This document shows, in pieces, positions 57,708 to 64,000 of a DNA stretch of 64,000 nucleotides. The stretch is from the NCBI RefSeq assembly GCF_014836885.1, contig NZ_JACSPY010000007.1, forward strand, positions 108,170 to 172,169, in the 5' to 3' direction. The position numbers and the translations under genes were made by a program. The stretch comes from Brevibacterium gallinarum. Its GTDB lineage: Bacteria > Actinomycetota > Actinomycetes > Actinomycetales > Brevibacteriaceae. A model generated the notes under the pieces. It saw nothing but the letters and a program-made list of their open reading frames with translations. It made no database searches and was not told the DNA's origin. Positions within the stretch are counted from its first letter, which is position 1. Every line of letters begins with the position of its first letter.

Positions 57708-57876
57708 TTCTGCCTCCTGAGCTTTCGGATACGTCTTCCCCTACGATCCGAACAGGAGGATGCCACCAGCATAGACGATCGCCGTCCCTGGTCAAAAGAC
57801 ATTCGTCCAGGTGGCGTCCGTGGTCTGTTAATCTGTTGCTGGCCTCGGCCTGCAGATGTTCACGCAGGCGATGCTG

Positions 57877-57950
57877 GCCCCCATAGCTCAGCTGGTTAGA
57901 GCAGAGAACTCATAATTCTTTGGTCGTCGGTTCAAGTCCGACTGGGGGCA
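57877..57950 (+). tRNA. tRNA-Met (anticodon CAU)
   Basis: Acceptor GCCCCCA/TGGGGGC, D-arm GCTCAGCTGGTTAGAGC, anticodon stem GAGAA/TTCTT with loop CTCATAA (anticodon CAT), T-arm TCGGTTCAAGTCCGA. It looks like an elongator Met tRNA; a lysidine-modified tRNA-Ile (CAU) cannot be fully excluded. CCA is not encoded. Confidence 0.95.
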
Positions 57951-58129
57951 CGGTCGGACCACCGTTACACGCAGATGCGCCTGCGATCACGAGTTGATTA
58001 GCGCAGGCGCACATTCATCTGGCGAGGAACGGGATTCCCAGCACGGCATTTCGGGTTGTCGCTTCTGTCTTTGGGGCAGAAGTGGGACAGAGCAGCTCTC
58101 AACACCGGCTTCGCATCAGTGCAGGCGGG

Positions 58130-59797
58130 TCATCCGTGCAGGTTCCTGCGCCGGTATCCGATCAGGCCGGCGATGACGAGCACACCGGCTGCAAGGGCCA
58201 GCAGGATAACCGGCAGCCATTCCATGTCATCGGCTGGCACGCGTGGCACATAGCCGAAGGGCGAGAGCTTCGCCGTCCACTCGTCGAGCTGAAGGATCGG
58301 CCCGAAGTAGCCGGTGAAACCGGCGTATCCGAGCAGCAGCCACACCGCGATGCTCAGGCGCGGCGCCCATCCGACGACCAGGGCGGCCAGGCCGACGAAG
58401 ACCAACACGCCGGATGTGTAGACAAGGGCGGCAGCGAAGATCTTGCCGACGATGCCCGGGTCATCGACCGTGCCGGCACCAAGAGCCGACATGCCGATGG
58501 CGGCAAGGGCGAGCATAATGGGGGCGGCAACGAGCGCAATGAGGACATGCGAGGACATCCACGTCATCCGCGACTGCCAGTTCGCCAGCAGCGCCTCGGA
58601 GCAGCCCTTCTCCTCTTCGCCCTTGATGCGCAGCACCGCACCGATGCAGAACACGGCTGCGAGGATTGCGATGATACTCATGACCATGACGAGGAAGGAT
58701 TCGACGACACTGGCACCGCCGATCGAGCTCACTGCTCCTTCGATGACGTCGACACCTGCGATCATGTCCTCGACATCGCCGAGGAACGGGCCGTACATCG
58801 CGCCGAAGGCGATGAGGGCGAACGCGTAGGCGATGATCGACGGGCGCAGCAGTCGCAGCGCGAATCCACCTGGGGTGGTGAGCGCCCTGCTGGCGCGCGG
58901 ACGTCCCGGGCGCGCCGACACCAGTCCGGAGGCGACATCCCGGCGCGTGCTCAGCCACGCACCGACCAGGCTGAGGACAGCACCGGCACCCAGGCAGAGG
59001 GCCAGCGGCCACCAGTCGTTGTCGAGGTACGGGTAGGTGCGCTGGCCCCAGCCGATCGGCGAGGCCCAGGCCACTCCGTTGTCCGCCGAATCACCGGCGG
59101 CGCGCAGGGCATAGGCGACGAGCACGAGTCCGATGCCGATCTCGCCTGCTGTCCGGGAGCTCTGGAAGATCTGCACGATGAAAGCCGCGCAGCCGACGAA
59201 GGCGATGCCGATGCCTGCGTGGACGGCCCCGTAGAGAATCGATCCCGGCCAGTCGACGGAGTCGATGGCGAGCACCCCCAGACCGGCGGCGATGAGCGCA
59301 CCGATGATGACGTTGACGAGCACCGCCTCGGCTACGGCTGCCGACAGGGGCGCGTGACGTCCGACGGTGCCGGCGCGGGTGAGTTCGGCCCGGCCGGTCT
59401 CCTCTTCTGTCCGGGTATGGCGGATGACGAGGAGGACGGACATGATGCCGATGAGGACGCCGGTGAAGCCGATCATCTGATGGGAGAGGATCGAGCCGAG
59501 GGTGTAGTCGCGCAGGTATTCGATCGGGCCGGTGAAGGCCAGCCCGGCAGGGGTGCCCATGGTCTGGGCGACAACCTGGCGGTCGGCCTCTGTCTCGTAC
59601 AGGGCCGGAAACGTCACAGCGAGACCAAGGGTGCCGCCGGCGATGCCGATGATCCAGCAGATAGTGCGCACAAAGTCGCGTCTGAGCGCAGTGCGCAGCA
59701 GCGCACCAGTGCCCACAAGTGCGTGGCTCGGCCCGCGGACTGCACGCGGCGGCTGCAGCGGTGTCAGCGTCCGGGCGGGAGCGGTGGTCGTCATCAT
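58130..59797 (-). CDS. ABC exporter permease (large, polyketide-exporter type)
   Basis: A 555-residue membrane protein with about 12 helices in two similar halves (starting VRTICWIIGIAGGTLGLAVTFPALY and, in the second half, PSIIAYAFALIAFGAMYGPFLGD). The family is usually labelled exporter of polyketide antibiotics. Motifs include HTRTEEETGRAELTRAGTVGR in the first half and IKGEEEKGCSEALLANWQSRMTW in the second. ATG 59797 overlaps the ATPase stop (TGATG). The substrate is unknown. It is the last gene of the TetR-ATPase-permease operon. Confidence 0.87.
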   Translation of the reverse strand: MMTTTAPARTLTPLQPPRAVRGPSHALVGTGALLRTALRRDFVRTICWIIGIAGGTLGLAVTFPALYETEADRQVVAQTMGTPAGLAFTGPIEYLRDYTLGSILSHQMIGFTGVLIGIMSVLLVIRHTRTEEETGRAELTRAGTVGRHAPLSAAVAEAVLVNVIIGALIAAGLGVLAIDSVDWPGSILYGAVHAGIGIAFVGCAAFIVQIFQSSRTAGEIGIGLVLVAYALRAAGDSADNGVAWASPIGWGQRTYPYLDNDWWPLALCLGAGAVLSLVGAWLSTRRDVASGLVSARPGRPRASRALTTPGGFALRLLRPSIIAYAFALIAFGAMYGPFLGDVEDMIAGVDVIEGAVSSIGGASVVESFLVMVMSIIAILAAVFCIGAVLRIKGEEEKGCSEALLANWQSRMTWMSSHVLIALVAAPIMLALAAIGMSALGAGTVDDPGIVGKIFAAALVYTSGVLVFVGLAALVVGWAPRLSIAVWLLLGYAGFTGYFGPILQLDEWTAKLSPFGYVPRVPADDMEWLPVILLALAAGVLVIAGLIGYRRRNLHG

Positions 59798-60720
59798 CAG
59801 TGTGCCGCCTCGTGCATCGTGCCGGTCGTGGGCTCGGGGTCATCGCCGTAGTGGCGCAGCATGAGCTCCTCAAGTGTGGGCGGATGGCAGGTGAGCGTGT
59901 CGAAGCCGTGGGTTCCCAGGTGCTGGAGTATCTCGTTGAGGTGTTCGCCGTCGACGGTGAGTGTGACCTGGTGGCCGTCCTGCCTGAGGTCGTGGACGCC
60001 GGGCAGCGCCGGGATGTCCCCGGCGGGAGTCAGCGTGCGCGCCTCGATGTGCGTGCGGCTCAGGTGCCGCATCTGCACGAGCGTGCCGGTTTCGACGATG
60101 ACTCCCTGCCGGATGATCGAGATCTGGTCGGCGAGCTTCTCGACCTGGGCGAGGATGTGGCTGGAGAGCAGGAATGTGCGCCCCTCATCGCGCAGCTGGC
60201 CGACGACGGCATCGAAGGTCGCCTCCATGAGCGGATCAAGGCCCGAGGTCGGCTCGTCGAGCAGCACCAGTTCAGCATCCGAGGACAGAGCTGCGATGAT
60301 GGCGACCTTCTGCCTGTTGCCCTTGGAGTACGTGCGGCACTTCTTGCGCGGATCGAGATCGAAGGCCTCGATCAGTTCGCTGCGGCGCGTGGCAGAGCCG
60401 GAGCCGTGCAGGCGGCCGAGGACGTCGAGGGCTTCTCCCCCGCTGAGATTCGGCCACAGGGCCACGTCGCCGGGCACATAGGCCATGCGCCGGTGCAGCG
60501 CGACGGCGTCATGCCACGGGTCTCCGCCGAGCACCTCGGCGGTGCCGCCGTCAGCGCGCAGCATGCCGAGCAGCACACGGATCGTGGTGGACTTGCCCGC
60601 GCCGTTGGGTCCGAGGAAACCGTGCACCTGGCCGGGTTCAACCGTGAGATCGAGTCCGTCGAGGGCGGTGAATGATCCGAAGCGCTTGGTCAGCCCGCAG
60701 GTCTGGATTGCCGGTGTCAT
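59797..60720 (-). CDS. ABC transporter ATP-binding protein
   Basis: A 307-residue ATPase of the drug-exporter type. Walker A GPNGAGKST, Walker B LVLLDEPTSGLDP and the switch LLSSHILAQVE are intact. The signature is YSKGNRQKV in place of LSGGQ, a variation common in this exporter family. It overlaps both neighbours (ATGA with the TetR gene, TGATG with the permease), so the three are translationally coupled. Confidence 0.93.
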   Translation of the reverse strand: MTPAIQTCGLTKRFGSFTALDGLDLTVEPGQVHGFLGPNGAGKSTTIRVLLGMLRADGGTAEVLGGDPWHDAVALHRRMAYVPGDVALWPNLSGGEALDVLGRLHGSGSATRRSELIEAFDLDPRKKCRTYSKGNRQKVAIIAALSSDAELVLLDEPTSGLDPLMEATFDAVVGQLRDEGRTFLLSSHILAQVEKLADQISIIRQGVIVETGTLVQMRHLSRTHIEARTLTPAGDIPALPGVHDLRQDGHQVTLTVDGEHLNEILQHLGTHGFDTLTCHPPTLEELMLRHYGDDPEPTTGTMHEAAH

Positions 60721-61481
60721 GTGTGGTCCTTCCGTGGGGCCGTGCCCGAGGTGCCGGTGGCGTCTGGGGTGTGATCCGCCGGCTGGACGCCGGGGTTGTG
60801 GGCAGCGTTGTCGCCCATGAGGTCGGTGGCGCTGACGAGTATGACGGGATCGGTGAGGATCTCACCGGCGAGCTGAGCCCATTCGAAGGCCGAGTCGGTG
60901 GCGTCGTCGAGCAGGTCGATGTCGAGGTGGCGTTTGACGTGGCGGTGCATGACCATGGCTCCGAGCTGCCACATGGTCAGCACCGTGATGTACTGCGGTA
61001 GTTTGGGCGTATCGCGCAGAATGCCGCTGTCGACGCCGATGTGCATGTACTCGAGGGCATCCTCGACCAGCGTGTCGACGAGCTCATCGACGTGCTCACT
61101 GCCGGTCGACAGCGTCTGCACCAGGTAGGACATCAACGCCGAGCCGATGAAGTGTTCGCGGATCGCCTGAAGTGCGTCCTGTCCGGGCCTGCTGAGGCCG
61201 AGCTCCTTCTGCTCCTTGATCTGTTCGGCGAGGTACTCATCGCAGGCGGCGCGCAGCCCGTCCTTCGTGCCGAAGTGGTGGGTGATGAGCGGTGTCGTGA
61301 CCCCGGCGTCGGCAGCGATGTCCTTGAGGCGCGCTTTGTCGATGCCCTCGGCGGCGAAACGGCGGATCGCCGCCTGGCGGATCCGGGCCCGTGCGGTCAG
61401 ATCCTCTGACCCGATGCCTGCTGGGGCCTGTCTGCGCGTTACCGAGTCCGGTGACTGAGCTGATCTGTCGTCGCCTCGCAC
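60717..61481 (-). CDS. TetR-family regulator of the exporter
   Basis: A 254-residue repressor. After a polar tail of about 28 residues comes the HTH ARARIRQAAIRRFAAEGIDKARLKDIAADAGVTTPLITHHFGTKDGLRAACDEYL, then a ligand domain and a disordered end (NPGVQPADHTPDATGTSGTAPRK). GTG 61481 is preceded by AAAGGGAG. It is coupled by ATGA to the ATPase, so it probably represses its own operon through the repeats at 61499-61532 and is released by the exported compound. Confidence 0.9.
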   Translation of the reverse strand: MRGDDRSAQSPDSVTRRQAPAGIGSEDLTARARIRQAAIRRFAAEGIDKARLKDIAADAGVTTPLITHHFGTKDGLRAACDEYLAEQIKEQKELGLSRPGQDALQAIREHFIGSALMSYLVQTLSTGSEHVDELVDTLVEDALEYMHIGVDSGILRDTPKLPQYITVLTMWQLGAMVMHRHVKRHLDIDLLDDATDSAFEWAQLAGEILTDPVILVSATDLMGDNAAHNPGVQPADHTPDATGTSGTAPRKDHT

Positions 61482-61498
61482 TGTGACTCCCTTTCGTA

Positions 61499-61532
61499 CT
61501 TTACGCGATAAAGCCTGCTGTTACTGATAAAG
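61499..61532 (-). promoter_or_regulatory. Likely TetR operator/promoter
   Basis: A 15-base palindrome CTTTA-CGCGA-TAAAG (61499-61513) overlaps a second similar box: TTACGCGATAAAG (61501-61513) and TTACTGATAAAG (61521-61532). On the minus strand TAAAGT (61503-61498) can be the -10 of the TetR operon, so a bound repressor would block it. Confidence 0.5.
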
Positions 61533-61644
61533 GTACGGGATGCGGGAGACGACGTCAAGCACTGCAGTGCTCATGTCAGCGGCCGGACGCATCCGGGCCG
61601 GTAGAATGTGCTCATCAGTGCCCGCCTCATCAGGAGGTTCTTCC

Positions 61645-62433
61645 ATGGAAGGGCTCGTCAGCACAGCGCTTATCGCTATCGGCACCGGATCGGCGGCCGG
61701 ACTGCGGCCGTACTTCACGGTCTTCTTCCTCGGCCTGGCCAAGCTGCTCATCCCGGCAGACGCTCCCGGTGCGATCAGCGGGGTCATCACGCAGATTCCC
61801 GACATCGTCGCCGACCCGTGGGTGCTCGGCATCACCGGTGTGCTGGCCGTCGGCGAGTTCCTCGTCGATAAGTTCCAGTTCTTCGATCAGGCCTGGGATG
61901 TCATCCACAGCGTGCTGCGCCCGGTCTTCGGTGCCCTCATCGGCCTGCAGGTCGGCGATGAGTACGGCGCCACCGCGATGGTGACCGGCGCGGTGCTCGG
62001 CGGAGCGACTGCCACCGGTGTGAGTGTGGGGAAGTCAACGCTGCGCGGTCTGGTGAATCTGCTGCCCGAACCGGTGACGAACGTGCTCACGAGTTTCGGG
62101 GAGGACACGGCCGCCGTCATCGTCCTCATCGGCGTCGTGGTGGTGCCGCCGCTGGCGGCCCTGGCCGGTCTGGTGCTGCTGGGCATCGGGATCTGGCTGT
62201 TCGTCAGACTCCGCCGCGTCTGGGCTGCGGCTCAGGCCCGGCTGTCCGGGAATGGCAGCGCATCCGCCGCCAGGCGAGGGCCTGGCAGCGCTCCGCGCTC
62301 CGGTTCGACAGCTGCCGGACGCGGAGAGGCGCCGTTCACCTCGGTGCGCGAGATCCTTCAGGCCGGTGCCTCCGAGGCACCCGCGACGGATGAGACCGGT
62401 TCGCCTCCGCGCCGGGACGAGGATCGGCTCTGA
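61645..62433 (+). CDS. DUF4126 membrane protein
   Basis: A 262-residue membrane protein with the DUF4126 pattern: STALIAIGTGSAAGLRPYFTVFFLGLAKLL, DIVADPWVLGITGVLAVGEFLVDKFQFFDQAWDVIHSVLRPVFGALIG and a Gly/Ala-rich repeat region GATAMVTGAVLGGATATGVSVGKSTLR, then a last helix VIVLIGVVVVPPLAALAGLVLLGIGIWLFVRLRRVW and a disordered, basic C-terminal tail. Function unknown. ATG 61645 has CAGGAGG 7 bases upstream. Confidence 0.85.
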   Translation: MEGLVSTALIAIGTGSAAGLRPYFTVFFLGLAKLLIPADAPGAISGVITQIPDIVADPWVLGITGVLAVGEFLVDKFQFFDQAWDVIHSVLRPVFGALIGLQVGDEYGATAMVTGAVLGGATATGVSVGKSTLRGLVNLLPEPVTNVLTSFGEDTAAVIVLIGVVVVPPLAALAGLVLLGIGIWLFVRLRRVWAAAQARLSGNGSASAARRGPGSAPRSGSTAAGRGEAPFTSVREILQAGASEAPATDETGSPPRRDEDRL

Positions 62434-62490
62434 CTCTCACCTGCACCGCATGATGCGGTGCCGGGCGTGTTCAGCGTGCTGAGTTGACGC

Positions 62491-63756
62491 TCAGCGTTCT
62501 GAGTTGACGCGGGTGAGAACCGCCCGGGCGGCGTCGACGCAGGCGTAGCGGTCGGTGGTGATGTAGACGTCGAACTCGACGCGCCCCTCAGGCCCCGGGT
62601 CGTTCTTCCGGGAGGCGGTGACCATGCCCGACCAGTCCGGTCCGACGACGATGAGCCCGTATTCGTTGCGCAGCGGGTCGGAGTGGTCGATGCGACCGCT
62701 GCGCACACCGGGCACCGGTGCGACGTCGAAGCCGCCGGAGAGCATCGCGGAGAACCCGCAGACCTGCTGGATGGATGCGAACCGCTCGGCGGTGTCCTCC
62801 CATACATCTTCCTGCTCACCGTAGATGCCGATGATGACGATCGAGCTCGAACCATTGAGCGCGCGGCGCTGGAGCGATTTGAGTTCGGAGCCCACGAGCG
62901 CCTCGTCCATGACGAGCGGGTCGTGCTTGAGGCTCTGGCAGATGGAGAACGGGGTGCCCTGCACCAGCCGGTTGCGGGTGAAGTGGTCGACGAGCGGGTC
63001 GTCGTAGAGCTTGTCGACGGGGCTGGGCGCCCGCGTCGGCTCACCGATGAGCGGGCCGGTGACATAGCGGGCGCCGATCGCACGCACCTGGCGCATATCC
63101 GCCTCGGTCGCCACTCCCTCGGCGATGACGACGGCGTCGGTGCGTTCGACGTGCGCGCGCAGCAGGCGGATGAGCTCGGCAAGTTCGTCGCGGTCCTCCA
63201 TATGCAGCACATCCGGATGCAGGCTCACGATCGAGGGATTGACCAGCGGCAGGAAGGCAGCCGTGCGCAGATCGGGGCCGATCGACTTCATGCCGATGCC
63301 CCAGCCGAGCTGGCGGGCCTGGCGCACCGAGCGCAGCACGGTGGCCGGTGCCCCGGCGATCCGCTCGGGGTCGAGCTGCAGGATGACCGAACGCTCGGGT
63401 TCGTCTGTGCGGTCTTCGAGGGTGACAAGCGATTCAGGTTCAGCCCCGAGGAACAGCCGGGTGGAGGCGCCCAGCCCGGCAGAGGCGGCATCGCGCAGAG
63501 CGATGTAGCGCAGGGAGGAGTCGAAGTCCCCGATCATCCCGGAGGTGCGCACATCAGCACGCAGGCCTGCGAACTCATCGATGCGCTCGCAGTCGCTCCC
63601 CGCCTCCCCGTCCGCCCGGGCCGGAAGCACTGTGTAGCCGACGGTCTCAAAGCTCGACGCCTCTGCCACCGGTGCGAAGTAGCTGTTGACGAGGCCGTGC
63701 CGGATCAGTCCTTCGATCTCGCTCGACGCCGATACATCGGCGGGTGTCGACAGCAC
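62491..63756 (-). CDS. Degenerate EAL-domain plus DICT-like sensor protein
   Basis: A 421-residue cytosolic protein. The N-terminal half (to about 245) follows the EAL c-di-GMP phosphodiesterase layout (NSYFAPVAEASSFETVGYTVL, ILQLDPERI, FLPLVNPSIVSLHPDVL, VVIAEGVATEADMRQVRAIGARYVTGPLIGEP). The EAL triplet is replaced by TVL near residues 42-44, and the DDFGTG segment reads GIGMKSIGPD, so catalysis is unlikely. The C-terminal half (about 265-415) resembles the DICT sensory domain (LVQGTPFSICQSLKHDPLVMDEALVGSELKSLQRRA). It starts at GTG 63756 with AAAGG upstream. Single gene, convergent with DUF4126. Confidence 0.8.
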   Translation of the reverse strand: MLSTPADVSASSEIEGLIRHGLVNSYFAPVAEASSFETVGYTVLPARADGEAGSDCERIDEFAGLRADVRTSGMIGDFDSSLRYIALRDAASAGLGASTRLFLGAEPESLVTLEDRTDEPERSVILQLDPERIAGAPATVLRSVRQARQLGWGIGMKSIGPDLRTAAFLPLVNPSIVSLHPDVLHMEDRDELAELIRLLRAHVERTDAVVIAEGVATEADMRQVRAIGARYVTGPLIGEPTRAPSPVDKLYDDPLVDHFTRNRLVQGTPFSICQSLKHDPLVMDEALVGSELKSLQRRALNGSSSIVIIGIYGEQEDVWEDTAERFASIQQVCGFSAMLSGGFDVAPVPGVRSGRIDHSDPLRNEYGLIVVGPDWSGMVTASRKNDPGPEGRVEFDVYITTDRYACVDAARAVLTRVNSER

Positions 63757-63927
63757 GAGATGTCCTTTCCGTTGGCGGCTGAGTCCTGTTGAGCGCATTC
63801 AGTGTCTCACACGCAACGGACACCGAACACGGCAGAAAGTCGTTTATGACAAGACTGATACACGACTGCCGGAAATCGATATCTGCACCCCTGCCGGAAG
63901 GCGCCCACCGCCTCGGGAGCGGATCGC

Positions 63928-63999
63928 TCAGCGCTGCGGATCCTCGCCGACGATCTCGATCGCACCGGTCATGGCGACGGCCTCGTGGTGGTGTTCGGG
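63928..63999 (-). CDS. 3' end of an unidentified gene (partial)
   Basis: On the minus strand an open frame runs off the window end and stops at 63928-63930, giving PEHHHEAVAMTGAIEIVGEDPQR as the last 23 residues. It uses high-GC codons and could be the C-terminus of a real gene, but there is too little to identify. Between it and 63756 I see no gene. Confidence 0.4.
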   Translation of the reverse strand, partial: PEHHHEAVAMTGAIEIVGEDPQR

Positions 64000-64000
64000 C

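Follow-up and report, generated by a model that had tools for sequence, protein, structure and literature searches.

The EAL-DICT protein encoded near the end of the window (the whole 64,000-nucleotide stretch of Brevibacterium gallinarum DNA that was analysed) is, judging from sequence, a well-supported pseudo-phosphodiesterase that is found across the genus. Because its active site has been erased while the gene has been kept, and because diguanylate cyclases are almost absent from the genus, the dead EAL-DICT protein has probably found a new use as a sensor whose effects are mediated by other proteins. The explanation that we favour, at a probability slightly better than even, is that the residues for cyclic di-GMP (c-di-GMP) were lost on the Brevibacterium stem and that the protein works like BluF and RflP, namely by protein contact.

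Gene, domain layout, and loss of the active site

The open reading frame proposed in the preliminary description is real and lies on the minus strand with its stop codon included (Table 1). GTG at position 63756 was accepted as the start codon because of its good ribosome-binding site (GGAAAGGACATCTCGTG), in agreement with the coordinates given previously; the GTG is preceded by GGAAAGGA, and an alternative in-frame ATG is located at 63798. The motifs LHPDVL and VIAEGVATEADMRQVRAIGARYVTGPLIGEP, quoted before as signs of the barrel, were both found in the protein. The EAL domain is recognised by Pfam with 49.8 bits (cut-off 31.3, E 3.8e-13). The DICT match spans residues 315-383 and scores 18.2 bits, under the Pfam cut-off of 23.8. 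The second half had been called DICT-like, which is borne out by alignment A2 (13 Brevibacterium proteins, with that of the window among them, and four intact relatives), where DICT was matched in 17/17 members at E <= 0.05 (best 1e-13), as well as by the intact homologues L056 and L101, which reach 50.2 and 30.8 bits, respectively. Between the two domains, the linker residues D253, H258, R261, and N262 are conserved in 12/12 Brevibacterium representatives, and a conserved GTP tripeptide (267-269) follows. The closest protein in the scan of named genomes, where all 17 loci belonged to Brevibacterium, is that of B. luteolum CCUG 46604 (95% identical), and the identity to EAL-DICT proteins of species outside the B. 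luteolum group is 48-60%.

Table 1. Positions of the EAL-DICT gene, its domains, and adjoining features in the window
Feature	Position	Strand	Remarks
Degenerate EAL-DICT gene, complete	62491..63756	(-)	421 aa, GTG start, stop included
EAL domain, residues 17-240	63037..63708	(-)	Pfam; column table; VIA alignment
Linker, residues 241-265	62962..63036	(-)	Conserved residues in Brevibacterium representatives
DICT domain, ~residues 266-421	62494..62961	(-)	Pfam, alignment, phospholipase-D-like predicted fold
Upstream stretch: ribosome-binding site and alternative ATG	63757..63800	(-)	
HAD-GH65 fusion gene (1085 aa), 3' end	63928..64000	(-)	Extends past the window edge

It had been stated that the EAL triplet is replaced by TVL and that the DDFG motif is lost, making c-di-GMP hydrolysis unlikely. 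Both replacements are seen in the alignment, where YEALARG of intact EAL-DICT proteins faces YTVLPAR, and LDDVG faces MKSIG. Intact homologues served to define 12 columns with the catalytic, metal-binding, or ligand roles known for EAL domains, namely the E and R from ExLxR, followed by N, E, E, D, D, K, D, E, E, and Q. All 12 hold the ancestral residue in 12/12 divergent intact relatives. The window protein, in the same column order, has T42, A46, G104, Q127, P130, K157, S158, S178, H180, E213, A216, and T233, meaning that 11 columns are altered and E213 alone is kept. Among 49 distinct Brevibacterium sequences, none of the 12 columns is ancestral in at least 90%, and for nine of them the ancestral residue occurs in no sequence at all; the ancestral N is present in 3/49 and the last two glutamates in 22/49 and 19/49. 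Two residues that contact c-di-GMP in EAL structures, the arginine of ExLxR and the Gln preceding the last motif, are lost in all 49. At the level of sequence, the loss of c-di-GMP hydrolysis is well supported.

The active site stays largely intact in the relatives of the order, for which 24 proteins were compared (the four first found and 20 further chosen matches, including the stand-alone EAL-DICT ones seen). All 14 columns examined are kept in 22 of them; the exceptions are L105, which deviates in two columns, and L106, which deviates in three. There are 66 EAL columns that are conserved in at least 90% of these relatives, of which 54 are non-catalytic and 12 catalytic. Brevibacterium keeps 23/54 of the non-catalytic columns in at least 90% of its sequences versus 0/12 of the catalytic ones (Fisher p 0.005). 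Furthermore, the catalytic columns have a mean entropy of 1.74 in the 12 representatives, whereas the mean over the complete set of 221 EAL columns is 1.12 (permutation p 0.01). As judged from these columns, the loss is specific to the catalytic positions.

Nine of the 12 pocket columns vary more than the mean EAL column, and H180, Q127, and T233 vary less. H180 replaces a catalytic Asp in 48/49 sequences (12/12 representatives), and Q127 stands at a former active-site column in 45/49. The conservation of these two residues could indicate that a remnant pocket binds something or that new catalysis has arisen. A repurposed barrel, whether a new enzyme or a protein whose former pocket accommodates some different nucleotide or metabolite through H180 and Q127, is however distinctly unlikely in view of the variability of the nine other columns. 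Moreover, no new conserved set of acid, lysine, or cysteine residues was seen at the pocket columns, and the same change of the KLD aspartate to His occurs in L130, an otherwise intact EAL-DICT protein.

The full-length AlphaFold2 model (15 sequences) is of moderate confidence, with a mean pLDDT of 72.6 and a pTM of 0.73. Its residues 1-250 align to solved EAL domains, the best Foldseek E being 1.3e-11 (6hq7_A). The VIA comparison of this model delivered 3n3t_B (Z 20.9, rmsd 3.6, 237 residues aligned), 3pjt_A of LapD (Z 19.9, rmsd 3.2, 223 aligned), and 4fok of FimX (Z 19.8, rmsd 4.1, 237 aligned). The predicted structure, a check set beforehand, thus matches solved EAL domains with Z values of about 20, in line with the earlier view that the barrel is kept; a missing barrel, which had been named as the refuting outcome, was not observed.

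Distribution of c-di-GMP genes in the genome, the genus, and the order

The genome (3.17 Mb, 99.98% complete) contains one EAL match above the cut-off, which is the gene described here. A second match (11.2 bits, E 0.338) fell under the cut-off and was discarded. GGDEF, PilZ, and HD_5 (the HD-GYP model) gave no match at E <= 10 in the whole genome. The lack of GGDEF that had been noticed for the window is hence true of the entire genome and extends to PilZ and HD_5, and the count of GGDEF and EAL proteins, which had been proposed as a check, comes to zero and one, respectively. Across 57 Brevibacterium genomes, EAL is present in 56 (55 over the cut-off) and GGDEF in one (G030). The sole genome without EAL (G017) is 86% complete, and another (G076) has two partial matches on two contigs. 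A sample of 297 genomes from the order, searched at E <= 1e-5, includes 137 with EAL and 125 with GGDEF; EAL without GGDEF occurs in 25, namely 24 Brevibacterium genomes and G253. Within this 297-genome sample, an orphan EAL is nearly diagnostic of Brevibacterium. G253 itself, the only non-Brevibacterium genome of this kind in the sample, has its EAL at E 1e-24 and no GGDEF at E <= 1e-5.

The only GGDEF protein found in the 57 Brevibacterium genomes is L050 (G030:C5:194510-195739). Its frame also holds an EAL domain with the motifs EGLLR and DDFGTG, and the frame after it resembles a glycosyltransferase, as judged by eye. G030 has the degenerate EAL-DICT form as well, which is evidence neither way; B. 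senegalense JC43 has an identical EAL-DICT protein. Literature on c-di-GMP in Brevibacterium, judged by title and the start of the abstract, held nothing on such a gene among the matches listed.

The protein had been suggested to be either a c-di-GMP receptor or something unrelated, of which the second part is favoured and the first is not. As a receptor, the inactive EAL domain would still bind c-di-GMP in the manner of LapD and FimX and would signal via the DICT half or a partner. LapD and FimX work in c-di-GMP-producing cells; they have the EAL fold in common with the Brevibacterium protein (the Z values of 19.9 and 19.8 given above), and their EAL domains have been solved with c-di-GMP bound, as stated in the PDB titles. 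Such a receptor is nevertheless highly improbable for Brevibacterium because no diguanylate cyclase was found and the residues contacting c-di-GMP are gone: the genome is without match to GGDEF, PilZ, and HD_5, 56/57 genomes of the genus are without GGDEF, the ExLxR arginine and the Gln are missing from all 49 Brevibacterium sequences, and nine of the 12 pocket columns exceed the domain average in variability.

Selection, descent, and the fold of the DICT half

The gene is under purifying selection, with whole-gene dN/dS ratios of 0.013-0.251 in nine Brevibacterium species pairs. A decaying gene on its way to loss, which would agree with the vanished active site and the 48-60% identity outside the B. 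luteolum group, is extremely improbable; the pseudogene was rejected since these ratios are well under 1 and the gene is present in 56/57 genomes. For one pair (L062/L063) the EAL part is unchanged, and hence an EAL ratio does not exist. Of the two parts, DICT has the lower ratio in six of the eight comparable pairs, the domain limits being approximate. This speaks for an alternative in which the work is done by DICT, with the EAL barrel as a mere scaffold for dimerisation or folding. We regard this alternative as rather unlikely, given that the EAL part is at least equally rich in near-invariant columns (the same residue in 11 or more out of 12 divergent species), with 78/224 versus 34/156 in the DICT part, and that many of the near-invariant EAL columns are new to Brevibacterium. 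Newly conserved positions, defined as those conserved in at least 11/12 Brevibacterium representatives but not to this degree in the relatives, include R66, E114-R116, N173, H202, and D220 in the EAL domain, D253, H258, and N262 in the linker, and D357, S359, and D374-S376 in the DICT domain. A freed pocket together with new conserved positions elsewhere is the pattern that would be expected of an enzyme turned into an interaction partner.

In the tree, the 49 Brevibacterium sequences form one clade (support 100/100), whose stem measures 2.02 changes per site versus 0.18 for the branch to the 24 relatives in a midpoint drawing. The four actinomycete EAL-DICT proteins found first are 26-31% identical to the window protein and co-linear with it over almost the full length. 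EAL-DICT proteins of other Actinomycetes thus have the same order of domains, but 22/24 have an intact catalytic set, whereas the Brevibacterium protein is inactive by sequence. Among the relatives scanned for domains, L101 consists of EAL-DICT alone, as does the Brevibacterium protein, whereas L056 adds PAS and GGDEF domains (EAL-DICT-PAS-GGDEF). In L056, L058, and L059, the PAS part contains a GRNCRFLQGP stretch of the type found in LOV blue-light sensors.

A sample of 396 genomes from the phylum was also searched. Seventeen genomes matched, the own genome included, with 22 matches listed, two of them without a locus; the 19 loci besides the own one were examined (L123-L141). Degenerate EAL-DICT proteins were found beyond Brevibacterium in G688 (two copies, L123 and L140) and G708 (L135), with frames of 406-512 aa. 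These two genomes belong to the same class as Brevibacterium and to another family. The notion that the degenerate form is unique to Brevibacterium was rejected on account of these three proteins. A single column is altered in L130 and likewise in L136; L137 and L138 (mainly the DICT half) and L131 (start missing) are little informative. A tree of 39 chosen rows places L123, L135, and L140 in two groups outside Brevibacterium, and degeneracy in G688 and G708 likely had separate origins, as far as a midpoint root and long branches allow. BLAST gave no match to the neighbour genes of the window beside the degenerate genes of G688 and G708.

The DICT half was folded separately because, in the comparison of the whole model to the PDB, only residues 2-250 were spanned by at least a fifth of the rows. 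The DICT-only model (15 sequences) has a pLDDT of 77.9 and a pTM of 0.80. VIA aligned it to TrmB (2f5t_X: Z 11.1, rmsd 3.3, 123 aligned) and NucT (6ehi_A: Z 10.2, rmsd 3.7, 129 aligned), the Z values being 10.3-11.1 for TrmB and TrmBL2, 10.2 for NucT, and 9.9 for Nuc; other matches included polyphosphate kinase 1, Zucchini, FAM83, and phospholipase D. As far as their titles tell, the best 50 rows are phospholipase-D-like domains, and going by the alignments we take the TrmB effector domain to be of this type too; a literature search for TrmB as a phospholipase-D-like sugar-binding domain found nothing. Foldseek gave an E of 1.4e-4 to Zucchini 4gel_A (rmsd 6.3). Seven matches (six Zucchini chains and one NucT) were obtained at E <= 0.001 with rmsd values of 6.1-7.4, and unrelated folds were also present at E > 0.01. 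A search of the PDB sequences with alignment A3 (hmmsearch) only delivered three SAKe chains (E 0.0039 to 1.8, 31 residues), and the sequence profile thus gave no link to solved PLD or TrmB chains. Neither the 49 Brevibacterium sequences nor the 24 intact relatives have an HKD motif (HxKxxxxD) in their DICT part (0/49 and 0/24). The DICT half is thus predicted, from a shallow alignment, to adopt a phospholipase-D-like fold without HKD, nearest to the TrmB effector domain, and this fold may apply to the whole DICT family.

DICT is not known to have an established ligand, and the phrase 'DICT domain' occurs in two of the 5.39 million full texts searched. Light or redox sensing had been suggested for this half in the preliminary description, and a role as light sensor is also a published prediction (PMC8612252). 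The modelled fold points instead to the binding of small molecules; if it is right, DICT may be a non-catalytic phospholipase-D-like member that binds a ligand as the TrmB effector domain does. Redox sensing by the DICT half is possible since a single cysteine, C406, is kept in 46/49 Brevibacterium sequences.

Genomic neighbourhood, comparison with known systems, and meaning

The upstream neighbour on the same strand is an MFS (80) or a GH65 (14) gene in 94/94 Brevibacterium loci, which are redundant (49 distinct proteins) and in which only these two gene types were sought. Where the flank is long enough to tell (five GH65 loci of four genomes), MFS precedes GH65 in every case. The distance from the upstream stop to the first EAL-DICT start codon is 30-220 bases at most loci; exceptions are L010 (362), L013 (negative, with a far upstream start), and L053, L061, and L090 (no start codon). 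FabF, DUF3145, GT4, and GluQ genes lie near many of the loci. The conserved order of MFS and EAL-DICT genes may be plain inheritance. No transcription factor is linked to the gene across the genus among the neighbour genes traced, and a TetR gene 1 kb from the EAL-DICT gene is at that place in this genome only.

The HAD-GH65 fusion (L055:10098-13355, 1085 aa), which ends at position 63928 of the window, sits between MFS and EAL-DICT in G000, G018 (B. luteolum), G003, and G063. On the other side, DUF4126, TetR, and a pair of ABC transporter genes (57708-62490) separate the EAL-DICT gene from the DUF3145 gene; the DUF3145 match of L033 (B. luteolum) begins about 550 bases past the EAL-DICT gene. 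This block was found in no other genome's locus among those examined, many of which have short flanks, and it resembles an insertion specific to the strain or species.

Inactive EAL proteins with other functions have been described before. E. coli, the host of BluF, has c-di-GMP signalling. BluF (YcgF), whose degenerate EAL domain has no phosphodiesterase activity, antagonises a regulator (PMC3509220). Like the Brevibacterium protein, it fuses a sensor to a degenerate EAL domain; the sensor, however, is BLUF and not DICT (the BLUF domain had no match up to E 1 in the Pfam scan), and the gene for its target, BluR, lies in the same region. In Brevibacterium, by contrast, no regulator is linked across the genus among the genes traced. 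RflP/YdiV is a lone EAL domain from which a DICT sensor is absent. This degenerate EAL protein of Salmonella steers FlhD4C2 to degradation (PMC5930307), and its target is thus a flagellar regulator. A mirror case to the lone EAL gene of Brevibacterium is GdpS, a GGDEF and not an EAL protein: it is encoded by the lone GGDEF gene of the staphylococci, and its effect is described as seemingly independent of c-di-GMP and also of the protein-coding function (PMC9714401). Membership of the BluF or the LapD/FimX type is not claimed here, as the defining features tested were not found.

In the favoured explanation, the EAL-DICT module would have lost, on the Brevibacterium stem, the residues with which it hydrolysed and bound c-di-GMP, and would have been kept for another job. 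The DICT half would bind a small molecule or respond to another cue, and this signal would alter the contact of the EAL scaffold with a partner protein; the likeliest candidates are a transcription regulator and the linked transporter. The action would resemble that of BluF and RflP on a regulator, in this case without c-di-GMP. Against this pseudo-phosphodiesterase reading stands that no partner was found and that the neighbour conserved throughout the genus is an MFS transporter. The conserved H180 and Q127, the conserved C406, the moderate confidence of the full-length model, and the degenerate proteins of G688 and G708, which show the event not to be unique, also count against it. A wider proposal, which we put forward only tentatively, is that of a ligand-gated switch in which an inactive, ligand-binding phospholipase-D-like DICT domain, comparable to the effector domain of TrmB, a regulator of archaea, is read out by a partner-binding pseudo-phosphodiesterase, with recurrent loss of the EAL active site next to a retained DICT in Actinomycetes.

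BluF and RflP are inactive EAL proteins of bacteria that also use c-di-GMP. Brevibacterium offers a dead EAL protein under selection in a genus where 56/57 genomes show no cyclase, which removes c-di-GMP as a confounder, and a knock-out phenotype would therefore expose the second function directly. Moreover, the predicted phospholipase-D-like fold provides a structural lead on the DICT sensor domain. If the proposal of a switch is true, the EAL barrel serving as a read-out of DICT, without hydrolysing c-di-GMP, would be a recurrent signalling design, and a genus nearly rid of c-di-GMP would have retained a single protein from c-di-GMP signalling and put it to use as a switch.
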